A DNA stretch of 20,455 bases from positions 1-20,455 of the IMG/VR virus record IMGVR_UViG_3300038566_000201. The stretch is one strand, 5' to 3'. Source of the DNA: a virus. Shown here piece after piece: positions 1 through 15,321 of this stretch. The notes under the pieces are model-generated. The model had not been told where the DNA came from and searched no databases. It was given only the letters and a program-made list of their open reading frames with translations. Within the stretch, counting starts at the first letter, position 1. Each line of letters starts with the position of its first letter. Both the position numbers and the translations under genes were made by a program.

Positions 1-125
1 ACAAGCAGCAAGAAATCGCTGACGAGTACGAGAAAATCTATTTGTCCGGTGATCGCCAAGCTAGAAACAGGGCCAATACATGGCTTAATGGAATTGCAAA
101 GGAATACAAAAACAATGGCGCGTAA
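1..125 (+). CDS. C-terminal end of an unrecognised early/middle-region protein (partial)
   Basis: An open frame enters from the left edge (first full codon at base 3) and ends at TAA 123-125, giving about 40 residues. The peptide is polar and helical-looking, with the segment GDRQARNRANTWLNGIAKEY near its end. I do not recognise the family. It is judged real because its stop codon overlaps the start of the downstream NinG gene by 11 bases, a spacing typical of phage nin-type operons, and because the overlap fits the ATG chosen for that gene. Being next to ninG suggests a role in the recombination or replication block, but that is inference from position only. Confidence 0.55.
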   Translation, partial: KQQEIADEYEKIYLSGDRQARNRANTWLNGIAKEYKNNGA

Positions 126-741
126 ATGCAAATGTGGATGCCGCGCTGAAATCAAACCGGCGGCTAAATGCACCACTTACATGGAAAAGCTTGGCTTTGC
201 TACTGAGGAATGCCAGCAAAAGGCGGCTATGGTTGCGCTGGATAAGCTGAGAGCTAAAAACGAGCGCAAGGCTAAGGCTGATAGGGTTAAGACTGAAAAG
301 GCTGAAAGGACGAAGCACAAAGCGGAAAAAGAGCGAGTCAAAAGACGCAGTGAGTGGCTAGATAACCTTCAAACCCTTGTTAATCAATGGGTGGTTCATG
401 TTCGAGATAAGGACGAACCTTGCTGTACATGCGGAAAAACAAAGCAGAATATTAAGTATGATGCTGGCCACATGATAAGTCGTGGTTCCAGTCCAGAATT
501 GAGGTTTGAGCTAACCAATATCCATAAACAGTGCAGTATTGAGTGTAACGTGCACGGCTCTGGTAAGCGAAAAGAATACGAGTTATTCATTATTAAAAAA
601 TACGGCCAAGCACACCTTGATTGGTTGCTAGGGCCGCAAAAATCACTAAAAGAACAATTCCCGCATTACACTGATATTAAGTCAGAAATACAGCGTTTTA
701 GAAAATTACTTAGGCAAGCTGGATTAAAGCCGAATTATTAG
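115..741 (+). CDS. ninG: NinG-family recombination protein (lambda Rap-like)
   Basis: A 208-residue protein of the NinG/Rap family, Holliday-junction or branched-DNA endonucleases made by lambdoid phages to help recombination. An N-terminal basic Cys motif (KCKCGC, residues 5-9) is followed by a long Lys/Arg/Glu-rich helix (about 35-80). The conserved core comes next: CCTCG (103-107), DAGHMISRG (116-124), ELRFELTNIHKQC (128-140) and C144, an HNH-like metal site of Cys and His residues. Length matches the family. The frame stays open up to a GTG at 49, but ATG 115 is preferred. It has AAGGAA about 11 bases upstream, it overlaps the stop of the preceding gene, and family members begin close to the Cys motif. 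The gene is transcribed toward the late operon, which converges on it from the right. Confidence 0.9.
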   Translation: MARKCKCGCRAEIKPAAKCTTYMEKLGFATEECQQKAAMVALDKLRAKNERKAKADRVKTEKAERTKHKAEKERVKRRSEWLDNLQTLVNQWVVHVRDKDEPCCTCGKTKQNIKYDAGHMISRGSSPELRFELTNIHKQCSIECNVHGSGKRKEYELFIIKKYGQAHLDWLLGPQKSLKEQFPHYTDIKSEIQRFRKLLRQAGLKPNY

Positions 742-3092: not shown

Positions 3093-3122
3093 AATAATAA
3101 TTATGTATGGTTAATTATTATT
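3093..3122. other. 11-bp A/T-only inverted repeat over the HNH gene start
   Basis: AATAATAATTA (3093-3103) and its exact reverse complement TAATTATTATT (3112-3122) flank an 8-base loop TGTATGGT. The first possible ATG of the HNH-like gene (3107) lies in the loop. The repeat sits between the divergent starts of the tailspike and HNH-like genes. In plus-strand RNA it would hide the first start; in minus-strand RNA it would form just before the tailspike leader. The stem is pure A/T, so it is weak. A regulatory role is inference. Confidence 0.45.
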
Positions 3123-3730
3123 TTGGGTTTATTATGATTGGTGAAAAATTCGGTTTCCTTACTGTTACAGGTAAAAGCACCAATAACGGTAAAGGAACAT
3201 ATAAAACAGAGTGTATCTGTGAATGCGGAAAAACACACTTTGCAAATACATCCAAGCTTAGATCTGGAAGAACTAAGTCTTGCGGATGCAAAAGAACAAC
3301 GCATGGCCTTTGGGGAACTCCTGAATACACCATTTGGGCCGCAATGATTCAGAGGTGCAACAACCCCAATAATTGCAATTATGAAAACTATGGAGCGCGA
3401 GGCATATCCGTCTGTAAAGAATGGCTTAGATTTGAAAGGTTTATTTCCGATATGGGAGAAAGGCCTTCTAACAAGCACAGCATAGACAGACTGGATAATG
3501 ATGGAGATTACACGCCCCAAAACTGCGAATGGAGAACAGCTAAACAGCAGCGATCCAATACGAGTCGCAATGTATTTTACACCTATGGTGGCGAAACGAT
3601 GACCATAAGCCAGTGGGCTGAAAAAATGAGATGCAATAAGAACACGCTTAGGGAGCGAATTGTTAAGCTTGGGTGGAGCATTGAAAAGGCAATTACCACA
3701 CCCGTTAAAAAGAGGACTAATAAGCACTAG
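3107..3730 (+). CDS. HNH-like / AP2-type homing endonuclease candidate, antisense to the late operon
   Basis: 207 residues (198 if ATG 3134 is used). Three parts can be seen. The N-terminal IGEKFGFLTV segment is followed by a Cys-rich AP2-like DNA-binding region (CICEC 37-40, SCGC 58-61). A central nuclease-like region has THG (65-67), YGARGISVC (95-103), HSIDRLDNDGDYTP (124-137) and NCEWRTAKQQRSN (139-151), the pattern of a large family of phage HNH-type proteins. A C-terminal helix-turn-helix (about 160-197) has TISQWAEKM and GWSIEKA. The usual HNH catalytic His is replaced by the IDR-DN form common in this family, so activity is uncertain. Neither start has a clear Shine-Dalgarno; 3134 matches the usual family N-terminus (MIGxxFGxLTV). 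The gene lies alone on the plus strand between two late genes, overlapping the giant gene's stop tail to tail. That is the signature of a mobile insertion. Confidence 0.8.
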   Translation: MVNYYFGFIMIGEKFGFLTVTGKSTNNGKGTYKTECICECGKTHFANTSKLRSGRTKSCGCKRTTHGLWGTPEYTIWAAMIQRCNNPNNCNYENYGARGISVCKEWLRFERFISDMGERPSNKHSIDRLDNDGDYTPQNCEWRTAKQQRSNTSRNVFYTYGGETMTISQWAEKMRCNKNTLRERIVKLGWSIEKAITTPVKKRTNKH

Positions 3731-6700
3731 ATCTTATCCTTTGCTGTTCGTGAATCTTTAATGCCTGCTTCCTCAGATAGCTTTTTGGCTTTATCTAAGG
3801 CTTTTTTTGCCTGAGTATAATACCTGGTGAATGCGCTATTTCTTTGTGTCCAAAGCTTATCTAGCTCATTTCGCTTTTGTTCTGCACTAAGCTTCTTATC
3901 GTATCGAATAGAAAGCTCTTTGGTTTTCATGCCTTCCTTGCCATAAATGATCTTTATTAGATTATTCATAGAGTCATTTAAGGCAAACAATACGGTTTTC
4001 TCGTCACCGCTAAGGCCATAAAATGTATCGTCTTTGAACTTACCATTAAGATCACCCTTAATGGCTCGCCTAACATCAATACCAGCCTTAAAGTCAGCGG
4101 TTACTTGGTCAGACTGCTCTTTTAGATCAAAGAATTTCTCCATTGATCTGTTGTTTGGTCTAACTTCAGGCGTTAAGAACCGCTTCACAAAGATATTATC
4201 AGCTAAGGTGCTTTCAGGCATATCCCCAAATTTCTCTTCATCCCAAAGCATGCGCTCAGTGCCAGCCATAAGGTATCCACCAAGATAGCCAGTGTGAGCC
4301 TTAAAAAAGTGCTCAGCCTTGATTGGGCTTATATTAAGCATTTGCCCAAACTTAATAAACGTCTCGCTTGTGTTGGCATTATATTGCTGTGAAGCGGATA
4401 AATCAGCCATCGACCCAGGTACTACCGGCGCGCCCGTCCATTTCTTATTGCGTAGCAAGTCCCACATACCTTGAGCGGCGGCGGGAACACCATCGATGCC
4501 GTACATTTGAAGCATTGTCCAAGCCATGCCCTCGGCGTATTCTTTGCCATCGCTATCTTCAACGTATTTAAAGAACAGCTCAGGCATGGTGGCAAACACA
4601 AAACCCACATCGTAAGGCCGAGGCATTTTTATAAACGTCCCATCACCTAAAGGAAAGTGCCAGTTTGTACGCTTCTCGTAGTCTGGTATTTCCTTGTAAT
4701 CTTCATCATCCTTATTAATCAGCCAAAGCATAAGCGTGGGCACCGTCAAGCCTAAAAAGGCTTTCATGGCCAAAGCTCTTGGGTTACCACCAAATTTCTT
4801 ATAAATAAACGCCTCTCTAAAAATACGGTCCTGAGATTGGATCATGGCATTAAGAAACGGCACTGTCCGAATGTAGCCGGTCAAAAAGTGATTGGCTCCA
4901 TAAACGCTAAAATCCGTGGATATTTCGCGCGCTGCAAAGGCGGCATCCATATCAGACATTTCGTTTTTCTTGGCTAGTCTGAATTCACCTATTCGGGTGC
5001 CGTATTCAAAGGCGCTCATTAAGTTATCAATAGCGCTTAAAATCTTCTGAGTTCGATTAGCTACACCATACTGCTTAATTCTAACCCGCTGGCGAGCCTG
5101 ATCTTTTGTACTGCCATGAACACGGCTTGAGTAACCGCCACCTGAGCGCATGAAGTCCTGAAAGTACTTGTCCTTTCTGAAATATGAATACATGCCCTTA
5201 AAAGAATCAACAAACGGCGTGAAATTGTTTTTACTGATAAAAGTCGCGCCAATCGTATCTCGCACAAGGTTCGCGCCGGTAAACTCTACCCCTAGCGTTA
5301 TTGAGCGCGTGAACAGGTTTTTAATGCCAAACATGACATTCATAAAACTGCTGTATGACTCTGGATTCATGCTTAGAAGCATTTCTTGAAGTAATGGGTC
5401 TTGCACCTCGTAATACTGTGGCTTGCCATTAACAATCACCGTATCAATGAAGTTTCCTGTCTCGGTTAGTGTTGGCTTAATGCCATGCTGCCAGAAGTTA
5501 AGAAGCTCAGGATTGCTTAAATCAAGCTCACCCTCAATTACCACGCCAGAAGCCTCAAGCACCTCAACAATTTTACGCTCCATGTCTTCTAGGTGCGTTT
5601 TAACAAGCTTAGAGTCTGGCGCCACCTTAACAGCCCAGATAGCGCCGTCACGGTGATTTGCAATGTATTGGTATAATCGCTGCTTGGCTCTGGCATCCAG
5701 TGCGGCCTTGACGTTTGCTGTCACTCCATCTTGAATATTTACCAGTATGTCCTCAAGGTTAGCCGTGCCGCCTTTAAGTTTATGGAAGCCTGAGCTAACC
5801 CCTTTACCCTCACTCAATGAGTCTCGAATTCGGTTAAATGGTACATAATCCTGATTAACCTTTTCCATGGTTGCCCGGGCATCAGGTGTGAGCATTCCAG
5901 ACTCTTGGTAAAGATCCATCATTCTTGTGTTAAACGCCTGGTACTCTTTGAATATTGACTCAAACACCGGGTAGTCACGGCCAAGCTTTGCCCATGCCTT
6001 AGCGGTTTCTTTTGGAATGAGGTTTTCACGTTTCTGGCGGTGAAGCTCTAAAGCTCTTCGGCCTGCAAAGTATCGCATTAGAAGGTCAATAGGCTGTTGA
6101 TCGCTGTCTTTATCGGTAAGTTTGATTGTGTCTACCGGCTTAAATATCTCAAACAAGCTTTTTCCGCTTGGCACTAGATCGCCGTTTTCTTCAAATTTAA
6201 GGGTGCCATAGTTCATAATGTATTCGGCTATACCCTCATAGCCGCCATTAGCAATCCTGAATTGCTTCCATGCTGATTCCTGCACTGTGCCAACTTGGCC
6301 GGTTAGCTCTTTCTCAGCCTCTCGCGCGGCGTGCATTTTATCAATTGACTGCTGGCGGATTAGGGAATCACGGCGATATGTCCACTGCATGAACTTGCCA
6401 TACATGCCTTCTTCACGTCCAATTAGAGCCCGCCCTAGATGGTCAGCACCTTGGAAGTAAAACTTGTGCATGGATTCACGAAGGCTTTTCATTCTGTCAT
6501 TTAGCTTTTTATCGCTAGCAAGCAGATCATTAAATGCATCATAAAAACCCGGTGCGCGAAGCTTCGCCTCTTTTGAGTTGGTTAGCCATAAACGTACAAA
6601 CTCGGCAAACCCTTCAATCAGCTCAATTTTAGCGTTAGCATCCGTATAACTAAGGCTTGCCACTTCATCACGGTAAGCTTTTTTCTTGTAAAGCAGTGAA

Positions 6701-9700
6701 AAATTAGGAAGCGTTTCATTGGAATACATATCCAGATAGTGGGCCATTTCGTGCGCCAAAATCTCAACGTCATTTTTCCGGCGCGTCCTTAAGGCGCCTG
6801 TTCTGGTGTTATAGAAACCTTCTACAGATTGACCCTTGATCTTACCGTTATAAATTCGGCGGCCCATTATCGATATAAGGTCACGCATAATCGGCTCAAT
6901 GCGCTGCGGATCACTTGGCATGACAATGCGCTTGCCATCTATGGTGATAACGTCCTGTCTTGGTGGCAGGCCCATGCTTCGATAAACGCCAACATAGTTA
7001 TGCCCAGGTGCATGGAATACCGCGCCCGTCTCTGAAGCTGGTCGGTTACTATTTAGAATCTCAGGCACTTTTTCAGACTTTATGCGCTTAGCTCTGGCTT
7101 TTTGTGCGGGTGTGTCTTGCTTGCGGCCCACTGTGATAGCCATTTCTAGCTGAGCCTCTTTTATTTCTGCCTCGGTTTGAGATTCGACAACCTGCTTAAT
7201 CTGCTCTTCAAATGTAGCCCCATCGGTTACCACATCAATGGTGTGCGGCTTTAATGCGTGAGCCTCAAGCATTCCTTCATAAGCTTTTGTTACTAGCTCG
7301 TCTTTTGGCGTGTCGGTTTTCTTGGTCTTAGTAAATTCTATAAGCTCTTTTTTGGTCATAGAATCAAGGTCACTAATAACACGCTCTTTATTATTAATTA
7401 GGCCATTAAAGCTATCGTTAATATCTTTTTTGGTGGCCGAAGAGCTTTCTATAAGTTGTTGATAACTAACGAAATCATTATAATTATATGCAGATTTACC
7501 CTCGGTTTTTTGAGGCAAGCGATACATGGAATCACTTATTTCATAATCCTTGTTTTTTCCTTTGTTTTCTACAAACCCAAACCCTTTATAAAATTCGATT
7601 AGCCGCTTTTTGTTGCCTCCAAAATCGGTGGACGGGTTCAATGATATGGTCTTTCCTCTTTGGTCGGCTAGGCGTGTTATGTCATTCATTGCTTTGGTTC
7701 CCATGCCTTTCTCGCGGGAACCTTCGGGCACAACAATTTTATCGAGAAAAACGATGTCGCCACGCTCTCTAATCTGGAAGGCTGTATTTGTATTATTCTT
7801 TTTTATAGCTGAAGAAAAGCTTTCTGTTGTGGATGGTTCCTTTTTAGAACTACCCACTGGTTTAATTGATTTAACGTCAAAAACCTGAATATCACCGTCA
7901 AGATATGCGCCGTCATATCCTTGACTGATAAGCTCGTCAATCGTGTACTTATCAAGTTCTTTGAACCCAGCAACTTTTTTTAGGTCAACGTTACGCTCAA
8001 TTATTCTTCCCTTTCCAGCGGCCGCACTGGCTGAGCTTTTAGGGTCGCTAAAATTGGCTTTATCAGAAGTAAACCATACAGTTCCATCGGCTGATTTGGT
8101 GGTGTCAAAATCTTCAAAATTCTGACTTGTCTGGTGATACACTGTGCCAGTAAAGGTATTAACTGGCTCTTCCTGTTGTGCTTTTTTTGTCTCTTTTTTA
8201 CTTTCTGCTATTCTTTTTTTTGACTCAGAGATAATAATTTTACTTCTTGCTGCATCAAGTGGAAGTCTTAGTTTTCGTGACTCTTCTCTCAATTCAGCCT
8301 TTCGCTCCTGTGAGGCTGTTTTATACTCGGCTTTTATCGGCTTAACATCTTCTTCGTATTGTTTTTCTAGCTGCTCGACTGTTGGCTCAGGAATAACCAT
8401 TTTTGGCGAAGCGTCCTTTTTAGACCCTTCTTTTTGGCCTTTTCCAGCTTTCTCAGCAAGATCCTTGGCTTCTTTGAAGTTTTGGCCGGTGGCGTAATTA
8501 TTACCTGCATCAAACTCTTTCTGATTCTCAAAAACCATGTAAAGCTTTGGCGTACCAGCAATAGAAAGATCAGCTATGATCTGCCCATCTTCTGACTTCC
8601 AGCTACGCTTGCTTCTTTTTTCCCATTTATTTGATTTAGCCTTTCTTTCTTGGGCTCTTTTTTTATTCCGTTCTTTTGCTTCGGCCTGCTCTTTTCCGTA
8701 GCTAGGCAATGCATTGATCAAATCAAAGCGCCTATTCTTTTCCGCATCCGTCATGTTTACGACTTCGTTCGGGTCTACCATGCCACTGGCATCACTCCCC
8801 ATTCTTTCACGAACAGCGGCACTCAATAAGTTTAATTCCTTGTTTATTTCTTCCTGAGTCATATCAGACACAGGTTTATCCTTAATCAATAAATCAGGTC
8901 TTGTATAGGTTACTGATCCATCATTATTCTTCTTAACATCAAAGTGATCTCTTGCCATCACTCGTGCAGCACCTTTTAACCCAACTCCTTTTGGCAAGGT
9001 AAAAGATTTTATTGCATCTCGACCAATAAAGTCGGTTTTATACTCTTTGCTAGTCAACCCCTCTACCATACCTGGCTTATTAACAATTTCACCAGAAACA
9101 AGATTGCCATCTAGCTCAATCATAATTCCTTTATTTTTGCCTTGGCCAATAGCTATATCTTTGCTGTCAGCTACAAATAACGGCTTAGGACTGCCCTTTT
9201 CTGGAGTGTTTGCCAGTGCATTCCATAAAAGATCTGAAAGTGACTCAACGCTAGATTCACGATACAAATCCCCAGTTATGGGTTTTGTTTTGTAGCTAGA
9301 AGGGCCATACATGACCTTTTCTGGCATTTGGGTTAATTTTGATCCTTCTTTTTTATCCGTAACCTTCTGATCACCAAGCAATGAATCCTGACCATCTACA
9401 AATGTTTGATCTGATTCTATTACTGGGCTTTTTTTGACAGGTACGCTTGCCGCTTCATCAGGCATCTTCGGCTTATCAATAGCCTTTTGTTTTTGCTCTT
9501 TGGCAATATCAGCTTCAGCCTGAGCATCCTGATTCTCTTTTTCAGTAAGATCTAAGGTGGCTGAGTATGACGGGCCAGCTTCTTGCTTTGCTGCTTCCAT
9601 GGCTGGCTCGGTAATAACCTCATATTGAGATTGTTCAGGCTTCATTGATTCAATGGCCTGCTGCTCCATTCCAGTTGGCTCGGCGGCTTTAATGTCTCTC

Positions 9701-10845
9701 TCAAGTGATTTGGCAAAGGCTTTTTCTGGCGAATAATTGATTTCATTGCCTAGCGCTGTGGTCGTACCAACGGCACCACCAAACACACCACCACCAACGG
9801 CACCTGCCGCCGCGCGGTCTAATGCTTCTTTGTAGTCAAGCTCTGCCTTGGTTCCATATCTCTCGCCAACATACTCAAGCATTCCTTCTTGAATAGCCTC
9901 TGTAGCCGCTTCTTTAGTCAAAGCCTTACTTCCAGCCTTAGCTACACGCTTGGTCGATTCTTTTATGCCTGCTTTTAGCATATTCTTACCAAGCTGCTCT
10001 TTAGCCGCCGAAGTCATACCTTTGGCGCCTATTCGCTCAAGTAACGATGAAGCAACGGCAAACGGGGCGGCCTCTAAAACGTCCACAAGCTCAGTTTGTT
10101 CTTTACCCTTGTTCTTTGCTCGCTCTTCGCCAATCTCGCCAGAACGGGCAAATACATAGGTGGGAAGCGCATAAATTGCCGCCACCATATCCGGTACAGA
10201 CTTAACGCCCTGCTCTAAACCAAATTCGAGCACATCAGCATAAGCACTGCCGCTAAGTGGGCCACCTTCTGAAAATGACTTTTTAACGTCTTCCCAGCCT
10301 ACTTGCTGCTGATAGCCTAGATCGATACCCTCAAGAACACTTGCACCTTTTTGCAAAATGGCCGGCGCATCGGCCTTGGCAAACTCTTCAGGGGTTTTAT
10401 ACGAAGGCAATATGTCGCCGTCCTCCCAGATAAAGCCACCCATAGGAAGCTTTTGCTCTAATCCTCGGCCAGTTGTCTCGATTGTTTTTAGAAGTGCGCC
10501 ACCAAGATCACCTGCGCGCTCACCAAGGCCAGCGCCTAAATTAGTAAGCTTCTCGCCTATCAGTTGCATCATTGGCTTTTCTTGCTGTGCAGGCATGGCC
10601 GCACCGCTATAAGCGTCAATGGTTTGATCTTGCTGGATTGGCTGCTGAATACCCTGATCAATTTGATCGGGCATTTCTTGCTGAATAGGATCGGCTTGAA
10701 TAGGCTGGTAGCCTATCTTTTGGGTAAATTCCTCAATAGGCATCGTTGAATAGTATTTATTATGAAGCGCCGGAACGAGCTTTTCGTCTGGCACTTCATC
10801 ATATTGAGGATTTTTTGCTCTGTAATCAGCTATAACCTGCGACAC
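3727..10845 (-). CDS. Giant polyvalent ejection protein (gp16 position) with ART, GNAT, zincin and LPD38-like domains
   Basis: 2,372 residues, about four times P22 gp16, in the gp16 position and probably ejected with the DNA. In order: an N-terminal helical motif shared by phage polyvalent proteins (YRAKNPQYDEV, ALHNKYY, 7-32); a Gly/Ala zipper segment (about 345-365); an ADP-ribosyltransferase-like module (LYRESS 527 onward to about 620); a charged coiled coil (about 825-890); an ART-PolyVal module (VYHQTS 902-907, WFTSD, YDGAYLDG, DVKSIK, to about 996); a GNAT-like module (about 1015-1112: LDKIVVPEGSREKGMG, then FYKGFGF); a SAP-like stretch (about 1150-1200); a zincin module with HEMAH (1365-1369) and EGFAEF (1411-1416); long helical regions; a hydrophobic segment (about 2015-2040); and a C-terminal LPD38-like region (about 2040-2230, MPRPYDVGFVFATMPE). 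The start is GTG with TAAGGAG six bases upstream. Domain names are by pattern, and the biochemical targets are unknown. Confidence 0.88.
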   Translation of the reverse strand: MSQVIADYRAKNPQYDEVPDEKLVPALHNKYYSTMPIEEFTQKIGYQPIQADPIQQEMPDQIDQGIQQPIQQDQTIDAYSGAAMPAQQEKPMMQLIGEKLTNLGAGLGERAGDLGGALLKTIETTGRGLEQKLPMGGFIWEDGDILPSYKTPEEFAKADAPAILQKGASVLEGIDLGYQQQVGWEDVKKSFSEGGPLSGSAYADVLEFGLEQGVKSVPDMVAAIYALPTYVFARSGEIGEERAKNKGKEQTELVDVLEAAPFAVASSLLERIGAKGMTSAAKEQLGKNMLKAGIKESTKRVAKAGSKALTKEAATEAIQEGMLEYVGERYGTKAELDYKEALDRAAAGAVGGGVFGGAVGTTTALGNEINYSPEKAFAKSLERDIKAAEPTGMEQQAIESMKPEQSQYEVITEPAMEAAKQEAGPSYSATLDLTEKENQDAQAEADIAKEQKQKAIDKPKMPDEAASVPVKKSPVIESDQTFVDGQDSLLGDQKVTDKKEGSKLTQMPEKVMYGPSSYKTKPITGDLYRESSVESLSDLLWNALANTPEKGSPKPLFVADSKDIAIGQGKNKGIMIELDGNLVSGEIVNKPGMVEGLTSKEYKTDFIGRDAIKSFTLPKGVGLKGAARVMARDHFDVKKNNDGSVTYTRPDLLIKDKPVSDMTQEEINKELNLLSAAVRERMGSDASGMVDPNEVVNMTDAEKNRRFDLINALPSYGKEQAEAKERNKKRAQERKAKSNKWEKRSKRSWKSEDGQIIADLSIAGTPKLYMVFENQKEFDAGNNYATGQNFKEAKDLAEKAGKGQKEGSKKDASPKMVIPEPTVEQLEKQYEEDVKPIKAEYKTASQERKAELREESRKLRLPLDAARSKIIISESKKRIAESKKETKKAQQEEPVNTFTGTVYHQTSQNFEDFDTTKSADGTVWFTSDKANFSDPKSSASAAAGKGRIIERNVDLKKVAGFKELDKYTIDELISQGYDGAYLDGDIQVFDVKSIKPVGSSKKEPSTTESFSSAIKKNNTNTAFQIRERGDIVFLDKIVVPEGSREKGMGTKAMNDITRLADQRGKTISLNPSTDFGGNKKRLIEFYKGFGFVENKGKNKDYEISDSMYRLPQKTEGKSAYNYNDFVSYQQLIESSSATKKDINDSFNGLINNKERVISDLDSMTKKELIEFTKTKKTDTPKDELVTKAYEGMLEAHALKPHTIDVVTDGATFEEQIKQVVESQTEAEIKEAQLEMAITVGRKQDTPAQKARAKRIKSEKVPEILNSNRPASETGAVFHAPGHNYVGVYRSMGLPPRQDVITIDGKRIVMPSDPQRIEPIMRDLISIMGRRIYNGKIKGQSVEGFYNTRTGALRTRRKNDVEILAHEMAHYLDMYSNETLPNFSLLYKKKAYRDEVASLSYTDANAKIELIEGFAEFVRLWLTNSKEAKLRAPGFYDAFNDLLASDKKLNDRMKSLRESMHKFYFQGADHLGRALIGREEGMYGKFMQWTYRRDSLIRQQSIDKMHAAREAEKELTGQVGTVQESAWKQFRIANGGYEGIAEYIMNYGTLKFEENGDLVPSGKSLFEIFKPVDTIKLTDKDSDQQPIDLLMRYFAGRRALELHRQKRENLIPKETAKAWAKLGRDYPVFESIFKEYQAFNTRMMDLYQESGMLTPDARATMEKVNQDYVPFNRIRDSLSEGKGVSSGFHKLKGGTANLEDILVNIQDGVTANVKAALDARAKQRLYQYIANHRDGAIWAVKVAPDSKLVKTHLEDMERKIVEVLEASGVVIEGELDLSNPELLNFWQHGIKPTLTETGNFIDTVIVNGKPQYYEVQDPLLQEMLLSMNPESYSSFMNVMFGIKNLFTRSITLGVEFTGANLVRDTIGATFISKNNFTPFVDSFKGMYSYFRKDKYFQDFMRSGGGYSSRVHGSTKDQARQRVRIKQYGVANRTQKILSAIDNLMSAFEYGTRIGEFRLAKKNEMSDMDAAFAAREISTDFSVYGANHFLTGYIRTVPFLNAMIQSQDRIFREAFIYKKFGGNPRALAMKAFLGLTVPTLMLWLINKDDEDYKEIPDYEKRTNWHFPLGDGTFIKMPRPYDVGFVFATMPELFFKYVEDSDGKEYAEGMAWTMLQMYGIDGVPAAAQGMWDLLRNKKWTGAPVVPGSMADLSASQQYNANTSETFIKFGQMLNISPIKAEHFFKAHTGYLGGYLMAGTERMLWDEEKFGDMPESTLADNIFVKRFLTPEVRPNNRSMEKFFDLKEQSDQVTADFKAGIDVRRAIKGDLNGKFKDDTFYGLSGDEKTVLFALNDSMNNLIKIIYGKEGMKTKELSIRYDKKLSAEQKRNELDKLWTQRNSAFTRYYTQAKKALDKAKKLSEEAGIKDSRTAKDKI

Positions 10846-11761: not shown

Positions 11762-12454
11762 TTACCCTGCCTTCTTTGTTGCGTCATAGGTCAGCCAATT
11801 TTGTGCCGCCTGATTAATTGACTGCGCTGTGTCTGTGTAAGCACCTGCACGTGCTGAGCCTATATTCTGCTGTGCAACATTCTGCGCGCGCCCAAGGTTT
11901 GACATTATATTTCCGCTAGACTGTGCTAGCTGGCCTGTGGTTTGGGCTTGTCCCGCCGCTGAAGCCTGCCCTCCCGACGATAAACTAGAAAGAATATTGT
12001 AGCGATTTGCCACCTTGTTTGCCTCACGAGCATAAGCATTGGCATATTCTTGGCTACCCATATCCTGCCCATATTGGGTTAATGCCTTCTGTTGGGCACC
12101 ACTTAAAAGACGACCCCTTGCTGCTGCTGAAGCATCAAGCGCATCAACGCCCTGCTCCATTCGGAATTTGTAGCCTGGGTCTTGAGTTACATCAACCTTG
12201 CCAACTTCAAAAGATCCATCTGCAATACCTTGCTGAATCTTATCTAGTGCGCTTTGACCGGCTTCACGCCAAGGCTGGAAGTCTTCTCTTTGAAGATCTG
12301 CCATTTCACGCTGGAACGCCAAATTTTTATCGGCAATTCTCTCTTCTGCTGCCGCACCAGCCTTAGCACCTTTTACAGAGGCATCTGCTGCTTGATCGCT
12401 TGCATAGGCACCTATTACCGCCGACCCTACTATTGCAGTGGCTACCCCTGACAT
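11762..12454 (-). CDS. gp7-like DNA ejection (DNA transfer) protein
   Basis: 230 residues of the phage DNA-transfer/injection family, a P22 gp7-type pilot protein. An Ala/Gly-rich N-terminus (MSGVATAIVGSAVIGAYAS) may insert into or contact membrane. It is followed by FQPWREAGQSALDKI (about 59-73), DPGYKFRMEQGVDALD (about 91-106), SAAARGRLLSGAQQKAL and GSQEYANAY, all recurrent in the family. The C-terminal third is Gln/Ala/Ser-rich and low in complexity. A strong GAGGGGG sits about four bases before ATG 12454. The start overlaps the end of the cupin-SET gene by 13 bases, so translation is probably coupled. Such proteins are packed in the procapsid and leave with the DNA to help it cross the envelope. 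Confidence 0.8.
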   Translation of the reverse strand: MSGVATAIVGSAVIGAYASDQAADASVKGAKAGAAAEERIADKNLAFQREMADLQREDFQPWREAGQSALDKIQQGIADGSFEVGKVDVTQDPGYKFRMEQGVDALDASAAARGRLLSGAQQKALTQYGQDMGSQEYANAYAREANKVANRYNILSSLSSGGQASAAGQAQTTGQLAQSSGNIMSNLGRAQNVAQQNIGSARAGAYTDTAQSINQAAQNWLTYDATKKAG

Positions 12455-13305
12455 AAATCCCCCTCGGCATTCCTATGCTCAATTACATCACGATAATTAA
12501 CTGTTATTTCGTGACCTGGTTCAATATCTTTTATAGCCACAAGATCAACTCCATCACTTGTAACCACCATAGCGGCATTAGGCTCAAAGGCGTGATTAGT
12601 GTATCGCCCGGCGATTGTTCTATTGGGCCCAACTCTAGCAGGGCAGATAATAGCCCCCTTATTGTGATCTACGTCACTAAACAAACCAACACCATGAATA
12701 CGAGATTCTTTAACGTCTAAGAATTCATATCCTTTTGGCATTGGTATCATATCCTTTTCATTTTTAACTTGAGCTGAAACTTCCTCTTCTGTCATACCTA
12801 AAGACTGGACCATATTTTTATAATCCGCCCGGCTCACCAAGATATTGAATTCTTCAAATTCCTCAAAGCTTCCACACGTTAAAAACTCGTACATTTCTTC
12901 AGGATCTCGCTCTTCAGCTACATGAAATGTAATCCAATGGGTATCTTCGTGAGCATAACCGGCTCGCTTCTTACCAGCCTTGCCCTCAAGGATATTAAGG
13001 CCAGTAAGGCGCTTAACTTCGCCTGAGTCGGTTGATACCGTAATGTCACCACTCAGCATAATGTCAAAATGGTCAAACTTTTGAATACGACCAGTAAGAA
13101 GGGTGTCTTTTTTTATAGTAATCTCGCGGGCATACATGCCACCACAAAAACGATGAATTACTGGAATATCCAATTGAGGGAACTCTGCAAGCTTGGACTC
13201 CAAATCCATAATCCTTGAGCGAGCCTCTTCCTTAACAGGACTGCAAACACTCCCAATTATTGAAATGGCTTTTTCGTTCTCGTCTATTTTAAAACCTTCA
13301 GACAT
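12442..13305 (-). CDS. Cupin-SET fusion protein (lysine methyltransferase-like)
   Basis: 287 residues with two domains. Residues about 48-145 fit a cupin/RmlC-like beta barrel: HRFCGGMYAREITIKK, a Gly-containing turn at LTGRIQKFDHF, then GYAHEDTHWITFH. Residues about 193-275 fit a SET domain, the fold of protein-lysine methyltransferases: HGVGLFS (204-210), the NH-x-x-x-PN motif at 237-243 (NHAFEPN; NHSCxPN in classic members), and GHEITVNY (264-271), where Y271 would be the conserved tyrosine. The pre- and post-SET Cys clusters of eukaryotic enzymes are absent, as is usual in bacterial and viral forms. The gene lies inside the virion operon, overlapping the needle candidate by 8 bases and the gp7-like gene by 13. 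The substrate is unknown; phage coat or ejected proteins, or a host protein, are possibilities. The cupin half could be structural. Confidence 0.82.
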   Translation of the reverse strand: MSEGFKIDENEKAISIIGSVCSPVKEEARSRIMDLESKLAEFPQLDIPVIHRFCGGMYAREITIKKDTLLTGRIQKFDHFDIMLSGDITVSTDSGEVKRLTGLNILEGKAGKKRAGYAHEDTHWITFHVAEERDPEEMYEFLTCGSFEEFEEFNILVSRADYKNMVQSLGMTEEEVSAQVKNEKDMIPMPKGYEFLDVKESRIHGVGLFSDVDHNKGAIICPARVGPNRTIAGRYTNHAFEPNAAMVVTSDGVDLVAIKDIEPGHEITVNYRDVIEHRNAEGDLCQG

Positions 13306-13936
13306 TATTCATTTGCCCCGAATTTTTGCTATTAGTTAGTAATTCATTGAATAGAGAAACTATACCATTAATTTCACCAACCACCGTATTCAAGTCGCTT
13401 ACCAATTGATTTACGTCTGCTTTTGTCTCATTGGCTAAGGTTACTATGCTTTCAACTTGCGCTTGATTGTAAGTTGCTGGCGCTGTTGTGGCGTCGGGGC
13501 TATCAACTGATACGGTTGATTCTGTGGCGTCTGTAGCATCAGCAATCAAGGCCATCTGCTTGACAAGTCCAACTGCAAGCTCTGTCGCCAAGTCGTTGAA
13601 ACCAACTATATTACCGTTTGATCCGTGGGCCTCTTCTAGCGCCTCATGGTCACCAAGATCATTTGCATTCTGTAAAATATCATTTGAATTTACCGCTATG
13701 TTATTGATATTTATAAGAACTTGTTCAATTACATCATTTAGAGTTGAATCAATATCTATGATCGTATTATCGATTTCAGACTTATTGTCATCAATGGCAT
13801 TGCCGCCCTTGTAAGCAGTGCGGCGGTAAAGATCACGAAACCATATAGACCATGACCTAGAAAGAATCCCACTACCATCAACGATCGGGGTGGTTAAAGG
13901 TGGTGCACCTACTATGTTCTCGTCACTAACTGCCAT
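13298..13936 (-). CDS. Virion protein, tail-needle candidate (gp26 position)
   Basis: 212 residues. The N-terminus (APPLTTPIVDGSG, LSRSWSIWFRDLYRRT) is a recurrent head- or tail-attachment segment of small phage virion proteins. The middle is rich in Ile/Asn/Asp at heptad-like spacing (about 50-95), followed by DHEALEEAHGSNGNIVGFND. The C-terminus (about 155-205) again shows regular hydrophobic spacing compatible with a trimeric coiled coil. It starts on the stop codon of the gp10-like gene (TAATG), the place of P22 gene 26, whose product is a trimeric coiled-coil needle of similar length (233 residues). Sequence similarity to gp26 itself is not evident, so the needle role rests on position, length and coiled-coil character. 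A fibre or adaptor role is the alternative. Confidence 0.6.
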   Translation of the reverse strand: MAVSDENIVGAPPLTTPIVDGSGILSRSWSIWFRDLYRRTAYKGGNAIDDNKSEIDNTIIDIDSTLNDVIEQVLININNIAVNSNDILQNANDLGDHEALEEAHGSNGNIVGFNDLATELAVGLVKQMALIADATDATESTVSVDSPDATTAPATYNQAQVESIVTLANETKADVNQLVSDLNTVVGEINGIVSLFNELLTNSKNSGQMNNV

Positions 13937-15321
13937 TATCTTGTCTCAATGTATGCGCCGCCAATGTCAATCGGCGCCGGGTCTGAAATTCTAATATGGA
14001 TCGTGAATTGACGGGCCGCGCCCAGCCTATTCCATTTTACTCGAGTAAGATACTTGCCTTTCTTGCCTATTTTTGACTCTTTCCAATTGCTCCAAGTCTT
14101 GCCATTGTCCTTGCTGAATCGCATCCAAGCAAGCGGGTCTGATCCTTGGCCTGTTGTTAAGCCTACACCTGATGACATATCAAGCTCAAAGCTATCAATA
14201 GATATAAACTCTCTGCCCATATTGATAGTGGGCAAAATAAACTCTCTAACTATAGGCTCGCCATCGTCCGTGTAATAATTTTTAGCCATCTGGTAAATGC
14301 GCGGCCCCTGAAAATCACCTGTTAGGGTTTTACCATTTAAGAATATTGATTTAATGGAGCGGTGACGGGAAAAATTATAGTCTGCTAGCTTATGCCAGCC
14401 TGATGTGGATATGTCATAGCGCCATGTAACGCCTGCACTCGGTATTGTCAGTATGTAAAACAGGTGGCCATCGTCTTGCATTGAGTAGGCGAAAGCATCG
14501 GACAAATCTACACCGCTCAAGGTTTCTTCTACGGCATGAGTGCTAATTCGCTGGGGGATATAACCGGATAACTGATACACCATCAAATCAGAGCCAACGA
14601 AATAAACCGTATTGTTTTGCTTTGTCACGGTATAAGCTGCAGCAAGCCCCTTCTCAATGAATGCACCCTGATTACGCTCAAAGGGAAAGTCTGAGGCACC
14701 TGAGTTATACCAAACCTCAATGGTCTGAGTACCAAACATAAACACTTCACGGTGATCACTTAAAACTGCCAGTAATGGGTCTGGCTGGCCTTCGGCACTG
14801 GCAAAGTCAAGTGGATCGAAAGTCACATTCAAAAGGTCTGAAATAAAGAATTGACCAGTACCTTTTCGGTCAAAGATAAAATACCCATCCTGGTAGGTTA
14901 CCGTCCTTGCTGGATACCAGCCATCACCTGATAGCTGCTCTACTTCCTTGGTTGTGTCGTCGTAGTAATAACCCTTTGATCCGTCCACCATAACAATTTG
15001 ATCGCCATTGTCTTCGGTAACTACGGTGCCAGTAAAATCAACATCACCAAGCTCATTGAATGAGCCGTCACTAAAAAACTCATATAACTTTGATGGAGTA
15101 ACCGCAAAGCCTCGACCATTAATTTCGTGAAGCGCTTTAATTGGGAAGGTTGGCAGCTCAGTAAAGAAGGCAAGCCCCGGCGAATTAATCAGATTAAACG
15201 GGTATTTTCCGCCGATAGATTTTCTAGGGTAGACGTTTATAAGCGCCTCTTGGCCAGAAATATCATTTTCAGCGGTATTTGTGGCCAGTGGCACTTCTTG
15301 TTGATTTCCGTGAATACCCAT
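13936..15321 (-). CDS. Packaged-DNA stabilisation protein, gp10-like tail hub/adaptor
   Basis: 461 residues, close to P22 gp10 (472). The protein is beta-rich with repeated aromatic blades (for example GYYYDD, VFMFGTQTIEVWYN, HLFYILTIPSAGVTWRYD). This fits the Phage_stabilise family, which forms a ring below gp4 to close the portal and carry needle and spikes. The N-terminus (VPLATNTAENDI, ALINVYPRK) is typical of the family. It lies between the gp4-like and needle-candidate genes as in P22 and is joined to both neighbours by one-base TAATG overlaps, with the 73-residue membrane gene inserted just upstream. The Shine-Dalgarno is weak, so reinitiation from the upstream gene is likely. Confidence 0.88.
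   Translation of the reverse strand: MGIHGNQQEVPLATNTAENDISGQEALINVYPRKSIGGKYPFNLINSPGLAFFTELPTFPIKALHEINGRGFAVTPSKLYEFFSDGSFNELGDVDFTGTVVTEDNGDQIVMVDGSKGYYYDDTTKEVEQLSGDGWYPARTVTYQDGYFIFDRKGTGQFFISDLLNVTFDPLDFASAEGQPDPLLAVLSDHREVFMFGTQTIEVWYNSGASDFPFERNQGAFIEKGLAAAYTVTKQNNTVYFVGSDLMVYQLSGYIPQRISTHAVEETLSGVDLSDAFAYSMQDDGHLFYILTIPSAGVTWRYDISTSGWHKLADYNFSRHRSIKSIFLNGKTLTGDFQGPRIYQMAKNYYTDDGEPIVREFILPTINMGREFISIDSFELDMSSGVGLTTGQGSDPLAWMRFSKDNGKTWSNWKESKIGKKGKYLTRVKWNRLGAARQFTIHIRISDPAPIDIGGAYIETR

Follow-up and report, generated by a model that had tools for sequence, protein, structure and literature searches.

SET enzymes have been described chiefly in eukaryotes, and the presence of a gene that joins a cupin to a SET domain within the virion operon of a phage raises the question of what such a protein might do there. 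The gene lies in IMG/VR virus record IMGVR_UViG_3300038566_000201, analyzed here over a stretch of 20,455 nucleotides (positions 1 to 20,455 of that record), hereafter the window. Databases label members of this family as of unknown function (phrog_34170), as "pbcV-1 histone H3-lys 27 methyltransferase structure" (MW202744), or as "SET domain containing protein" (A0A6J5PTS6), and other members as hypothetical or "tail fiber"; NCBIfam and PADLOC left the fusion unmatched. A full-text literature search, which covered few subscription journals, found no description of a phage cupin-SET or compact SET protein; a SET-domain ORF is listed, without study, in Stenotrophomonas phage Ps15.

The cupin-SET gene within a P22-like late operon

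Pfam and PHROG matches, together with position, identify a P22-like late operon on the minus strand of the window. It starts with the end of a P22_portal gene, followed in order by a gene in scaffold position, a P22-type coat gene, a gene in gp4 position and a gp10-type head closure gene, and continues with a 212-aa ORF, the 287-aa cupin-SET ORF, a gp7-type gene, a 305-aa ORF, a 2372-aa LPD38 protein, and a 718-aa ORF in tailspike position (Table 1). The initial annotation had given the cupin-SET ORF without its strand; the ORF is genuine and lies on the minus strand, where it is open throughout, and the plus-strand translation of the same interval is riddled with stops. The translational overlaps proposed for both sides were recovered, with 8 nt shared with the upstream ORF (13298–13305) and 13 nt with the downstream gp7-like ORF (12442–12454), as was the virion-operon setting, with P22-type coat, gp10-type and gp7-type genes around the fusion. 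Of the neighbors that had been named as gp26- and gp7-type, the gp7 assignment stands on its PHROG match; the gp26 assignment stands by position only, the PHROG match of the upstream ORF being a weak one to head fiber proteins.

Table 1. Coordinates of the cupin-SET gene, its parts and its operon neighbors in the window.
Feature	Position	Strand	Evidence and remarks
Cupin-SET fusion gene	12442..13305	minus	287 aa; Pfam, PHROG, AlphaFold, structure comparison
RmlC-like cupin domain, residues ~42–147	12865..13182	minus	AlphaFold model, PDB matches, phrog_12032 E 4.1e-44
Helical linker, residues ~148–189	12739..12864	minus	Alignments; modeled helices 147–168, 173–181
Compact SET domain without SET-I, residues ~189–272	12490..12741	minus	G207, N237, H238, N243, E266, Y271
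Cupin-SET 3' end (EGDLCQG-stop)	12442..12470	minus	Overlaps gp7-like start and likely ribosome-binding site
P22 gp7-type DNA ejection protein	11762..12454	minus	phrog_598 E 5.8e-41; translational overlap
Upstream overlapping ORF, 212 aa, fiber/needle position	13298..13936	minus	phrog_4366 head fiber E 2.6e-4
P22 gp10-type head closure/stabilization protein	13936..15321	minus	Pfam Phage_stabilise; phrog_578 E 3e-128
2372-aa polyvalent ejection-type protein	3727..10845	minus	Pfam LPD38 148 bits; phrog_15406

The 2372-aa protein carries its LPD38 domain at residues 2047–2206, a HEMAHYLD zincin-like motif, and a weak GNAT-like match at residues 1032–1097. A free-standing HNH endonuclease gene (phrog_374; 3107–3730, plus strand) between this giant ejection protein and the tailspike-position ORF resembles a homing insertion, and a NinG-like gene (49–741, plus strand; Pfam NinG, 139.8 bits) lies at the edge of the window, on the strand opposite to the operon.

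The compact SET domain and its active site

By every defining feature tested (profile, fold and motifs), the C-terminal half of the protein belongs to the SET superfamily. The Pfam SET profile (PF00856) matched it with an E-value of 4.6e-9 (37.1 bits vs. a cut-off of 22.4), over profile positions 62–104 only, and matched 11 of 11 family members; a profile built from 11 relatives retrieved chains of MLL, EZH2, SET7/9 and vSET (E down to 5e-11) and aligned an N-terminal SxIxGxGLF motif, together with the C-terminal NH and Y motifs, to solved SET chains. The AlphaFold model, based on a 56-row alignment, reached a mean pLDDT of 94.1, mostly 96–98 across the SET domain; the SET fold that had been anticipated from the sequence is present in this predicted structure, in which residues 188–272 superpose on MLL1 (Z 10.6), EZH2 (Z ~10), SET7/9 (Z 9.8) and vSET (Z 9.6). 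The motifs read by the initial annotation as those of a SET domain, HGVGLFS (residues 204–210), NHAFEPN (237–243) and GHEITVNY (264–271), do occur in the right order; their spacing is not the typical one, the SET-I insert being absent.

This insert, which carries part of the substrate channel, is a trait of canonical histone lysine methyltransferases of the vSET/MLL type. Among the matches listed, 172 of 173 relatives have 38 residues between the SxIxGxG motif and NH; a stretch of ~42 residues in MLL1 corresponds to ~8 in the window protein, which amounts to a deletion of ~34 residues relative to MLL1. Judged by its sequence, the phage SET domain is placed outside the canonical, SET-I-bearing type. 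In canonical SET domains the lysine channel is lined by tyrosines located within the missing stretch, and the phage domain therefore lacks them; catalysis may for this reason differ, or the substrate may be other than lysine. The C-terminal catalytic tyrosine (Y271) is retained despite the loss of SET-I, and the ~82 residues of the phage domain would offer a very small natural SET core for studying the minimum that catalysis requires.

Conservation of the active site was followed in 51 non-redundant homologs (mutual identity under about 88%, many only ~35% identical). S201, G207, T230, G233, R234, N237, H238, N243, E266 and Y271 were identical in all 51, including the tyrosine that had been singled out for checking; in a wider, partly redundant set, among the matches listed, the serine and the glycine were found in 179/179 proteins each, NH in 177/177 and the tyrosine in 174/174. 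The linker (residues 148–189) is conserved along with the SET domain, with the pattern DYxxx...GxTxExVxxQxENxxD. Since the catalytic residues stay invariant among proteins that often share only ~35% identity, the SET half appears to be an enzyme and not a structural remnant, and the cupin-SET protein is likely a methyltransferase. The residue two positions before Y271, which we take to be the F/Y switch position of SET enzymes, is mostly V or I in the 51-homolog alignment; either residue would suit higher methylation states.

The cupin half and its partners among relatives

The cupin-like domain that the initial annotation had placed ahead of the SET domain was recovered as an RmlC-like fold at residues ~42–147; structure matches of the AlphaFold model span residues 42–147 and include 3fjs and 3d82 (E ~1e-6), HP0902 (Z 8.7) and DddK (Z 8.6), and the cupin half matches PHROG 12032/24280 (phrog_12032 over residues 20–153). 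The cupin metal ligands (HxH...E and the second-motif His) were not found in the 51-homolog alignment; in motif 1 only H79 is widely conserved (45/51), and H119 occurs in 25/51. Since the canonical HxH...E metal motif is absent, the cupin is probably no second enzyme, and the earlier suggestion of such a role is weakened. A similar RmlC-like cupin has been labeled "short tail fiber", a label that one paper notes to lack experimental validation (PMC8703784), and the literature search found no virion location for the phrog_12032 "short tail fibre" proteins; the domain assignments given here replace this unsupported label with a testable one.

Linkage of the two domains was judged from the best 80 matches of each scan, two scans having at least about 600 matching stretches, and loci at contig ends (L080, L123) were excluded from this judgement. 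Among the matches listed, cupin-SET fusions were found 163 times, fusions in reversed order, SET first and cupin second, three times (L073 2962–3819, L092 5980–6855, L100 5998–6849), and neighboring separate genes four times, in either order (L061, L063, L117, L119; each pair may represent one virus). The occurrence of three arrangements, fused, reversed and split, argues for a working relation between cupin and SET; more distant SET domains with other partners may exist beyond the matches listed. The order gp10 ... cupin-SET, gp7 recurs in most loci (among loci up to L095), and, among the matches listed, a gp7-like gene directly follows 140 of the 160 SET genes for which a downstream gene is present; this count was obtained with an iterated profile of a protein of simple composition, and some of its matches may be false. 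As to whether the fusion always lies between gp26- and gp7-type genes, the gp7 side is kept in most cases, and on the other side the upstream ORF varies freely; the small upstream ORFs were rejected as a constant partner because they are too diverse. Ten loci came from bacterial or archaeal assemblies, mostly metagenome bins that may contain phage contigs; seven of them carry cupin and SET together, several of these beside P22-type coat, gp10 or gp7 genes. Prophage L371 has a SET domain without a recognized cupin, prophage L372 has cupin and SET distant from any recognized gp7, and L374 and L375 resemble ordinary cellular SET proteins.

Thalassomonas phage BA3, Shewanella phage X14 and many Vibrio phages encode the same cupin (~60–72% identical) without a SET domain, which is replaced by a short helical tail. 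The BA3 cupin gene occupies the equivalent place, ahead of the DNA ejection gene, and several SET-less forms end in a GDLCQ-like peptide, the same peptide that overlaps the gp7 start in the window. In the cupin tree, which is based on 125 columns and contains many unresolved forks, four SET-less rows cluster inside the SET-bearing rows and adjoin the window sequence; the SET/no-SET labels need two changes on this tree, for which a single gain and a single loss of the SET domain are the simplest reading. Since this sister clade, a close lineage, has the cupin alone, SET is not required for building the particle.

In BPP-1-like phages the cupin (Bbp23) is accompanied by a GNAT gene, which usually lies immediately upstream of it; among the matches listed, a GNAT gene was found near a Bbp23-type cupin in 77 loci and directly upstream in 57 (L045 5501–6420, L206–L285). 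A GNAT scan of 34 records was positive for 10/10 BPP-1-like, 0/4 SET-less Vibrio-type and 2/20 SET-bearing records, and one of the last two matches sits within a giant ORF. The idea that SET and GNAT are mutually exclusive alternatives beside the cupin was set aside, since the labels follow lineage and exclusivity is for that reason not independent evidence. P22 gp14 and its phiSG1 homolog (DUF2824) occupy the slot of cupin-SET, from needle to gp7 (L126 8911–9366; L376 2917–3387), and DUF2824 looks GNAT-like by eye; a shared "modifier slot", with gp14/DUF2824 as a GNAT, is not claimed, given a pLDDT of 42 and a GNAT profile comparison probability of 19%.

Possible functions and known systems

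From the observed domains, their fold, the invariant catalytic residues, the SET-cupin-gp7 linkage and the absence of SET in the sister clade we infer, at slightly less than an even chance, that the protein is an active SAM-dependent protein-lysine methyltransferase, that its non-catalytic cupin docks on the ejection module, and that it methylates a protein of the virion or of this module. Expressed late by a P22-like podovirus, the SET half would act as a SAM-dependent enzyme from a compact subfamily that lacks SET-I, with protein lysine as its most likely target; the cupin, no metal enzyme, would serve as a docking module of the ejection-protein part of the virion and would keep the enzyme attached to its partner, most likely at the assembly stage, next to the gp7-type ejection protein. 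Methylation would then fall on a virion or ejection-module protein, with gp7 or the large polyvalent protein as a first guess.

It is also conceivable, if rather unlikely, that the enzyme is held in the virion by its cupin and would enter the cell from there, with the gp7-type and polyvalent ejection proteins, to methylate a host protein early in infection. The cupin-SET gene adjoins gp7 and lies near a polyvalent protein of the LPD38 type, a class whose injection along with phage DNA has been predicted (PMC5512222; the phrase "SET domain" is absent from the main text of that paper), and a SET domain that is dispensable in the sister clade is what a host-directed function would lead one to expect. 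The precedent of vSET, which PBCV-1 both encodes and packages and whose target is host histone H3 (PMC7019647), points the same way; however, histone H3 is absent from bacteria, and this known packaged SET comes from an unrelated algal virus. The generalization that virion-associated, SET-I-less methyltransferases with a cupin adaptor are widespread, are delivered with ejection proteins, and methylate bacterial host proteins at infection must be considered unlikely. That the SET domain modifies its own cupin and in this way tunes the assembly of that virion part is quite improbable: the linkage, found in either domain order and also between separate genes, would suit it, as would the basic GKK/GRK motif in the cupin, but SET-less phages conserve this motif just as well, so that it is not SET-specific, and the conserved cupin lysines, present there to an equal degree, were rejected as a SET substrate. 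Least probable of all is a degenerate SET (beta-clip) domain with a structural or binding role and no catalysis, a reading that accommodates the missing SET-I with its tyrosines and the virion-operon location but is opposed by the finding that NH, E266 and Y271 do not vary at all among divergent phages and by a sister clade in which the cupin stands alone, SET-less. Whether at assembly on the ejection module, as preferred here, or in the host cell, a protein of the particle or of the host is probably methylated by these phages; if this is true, common aquatic podoviruses would methylate proteins during particle assembly or entry.

Among known systems, phrog_34170, MW202744 and A0A6J5PTS6 are members of cupin-SET's own family that are already in databases, in records that omit the virion context, the loss of SET-I and the link to the cupin. 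Isolated phages with a member of the family include Pseudoalteromonas phage PH1 and Rhodoferax phage P26218. The "short tail fiber protein" and "tail fiber adhesin" groups phrog_12032/phrog_24280 (BPP-1 Bbp23, Thalassomonas BA3, Vibrio phages) contain clear homologs of the cupin and differ in having no SET domain. The chlorovirus PBCV-1 protein vSET (A612L) is likewise a small viral SET domain (Z 9.6, rmsd 2.5 over 80 residues, 29% identity); its closeness to the phage domain lies only in the fold and in the shared GxG, NH and catalytic Tyr motifs, and does not extend to SET-I and its tyrosines, which the phage domain lacks. The phage domain is also shorter (model residues 191–271 align to vSET 1–105) and, in contrast to vSET, is fused to a cupin within a phage virion operon and would encounter no histone target in bacteria. 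Finally, the SET domain of MLL1/KMT2A is the best fold match (Z 10.6, rmsd 1.7–2.1 over ~80 residues, 29–30% identity); whereas MLL1 possesses SET-I, missing in the phage, and a post-SET region, its SxIxGxGLF, NH and EExTxxY motifs align with those of the phage SET domain.
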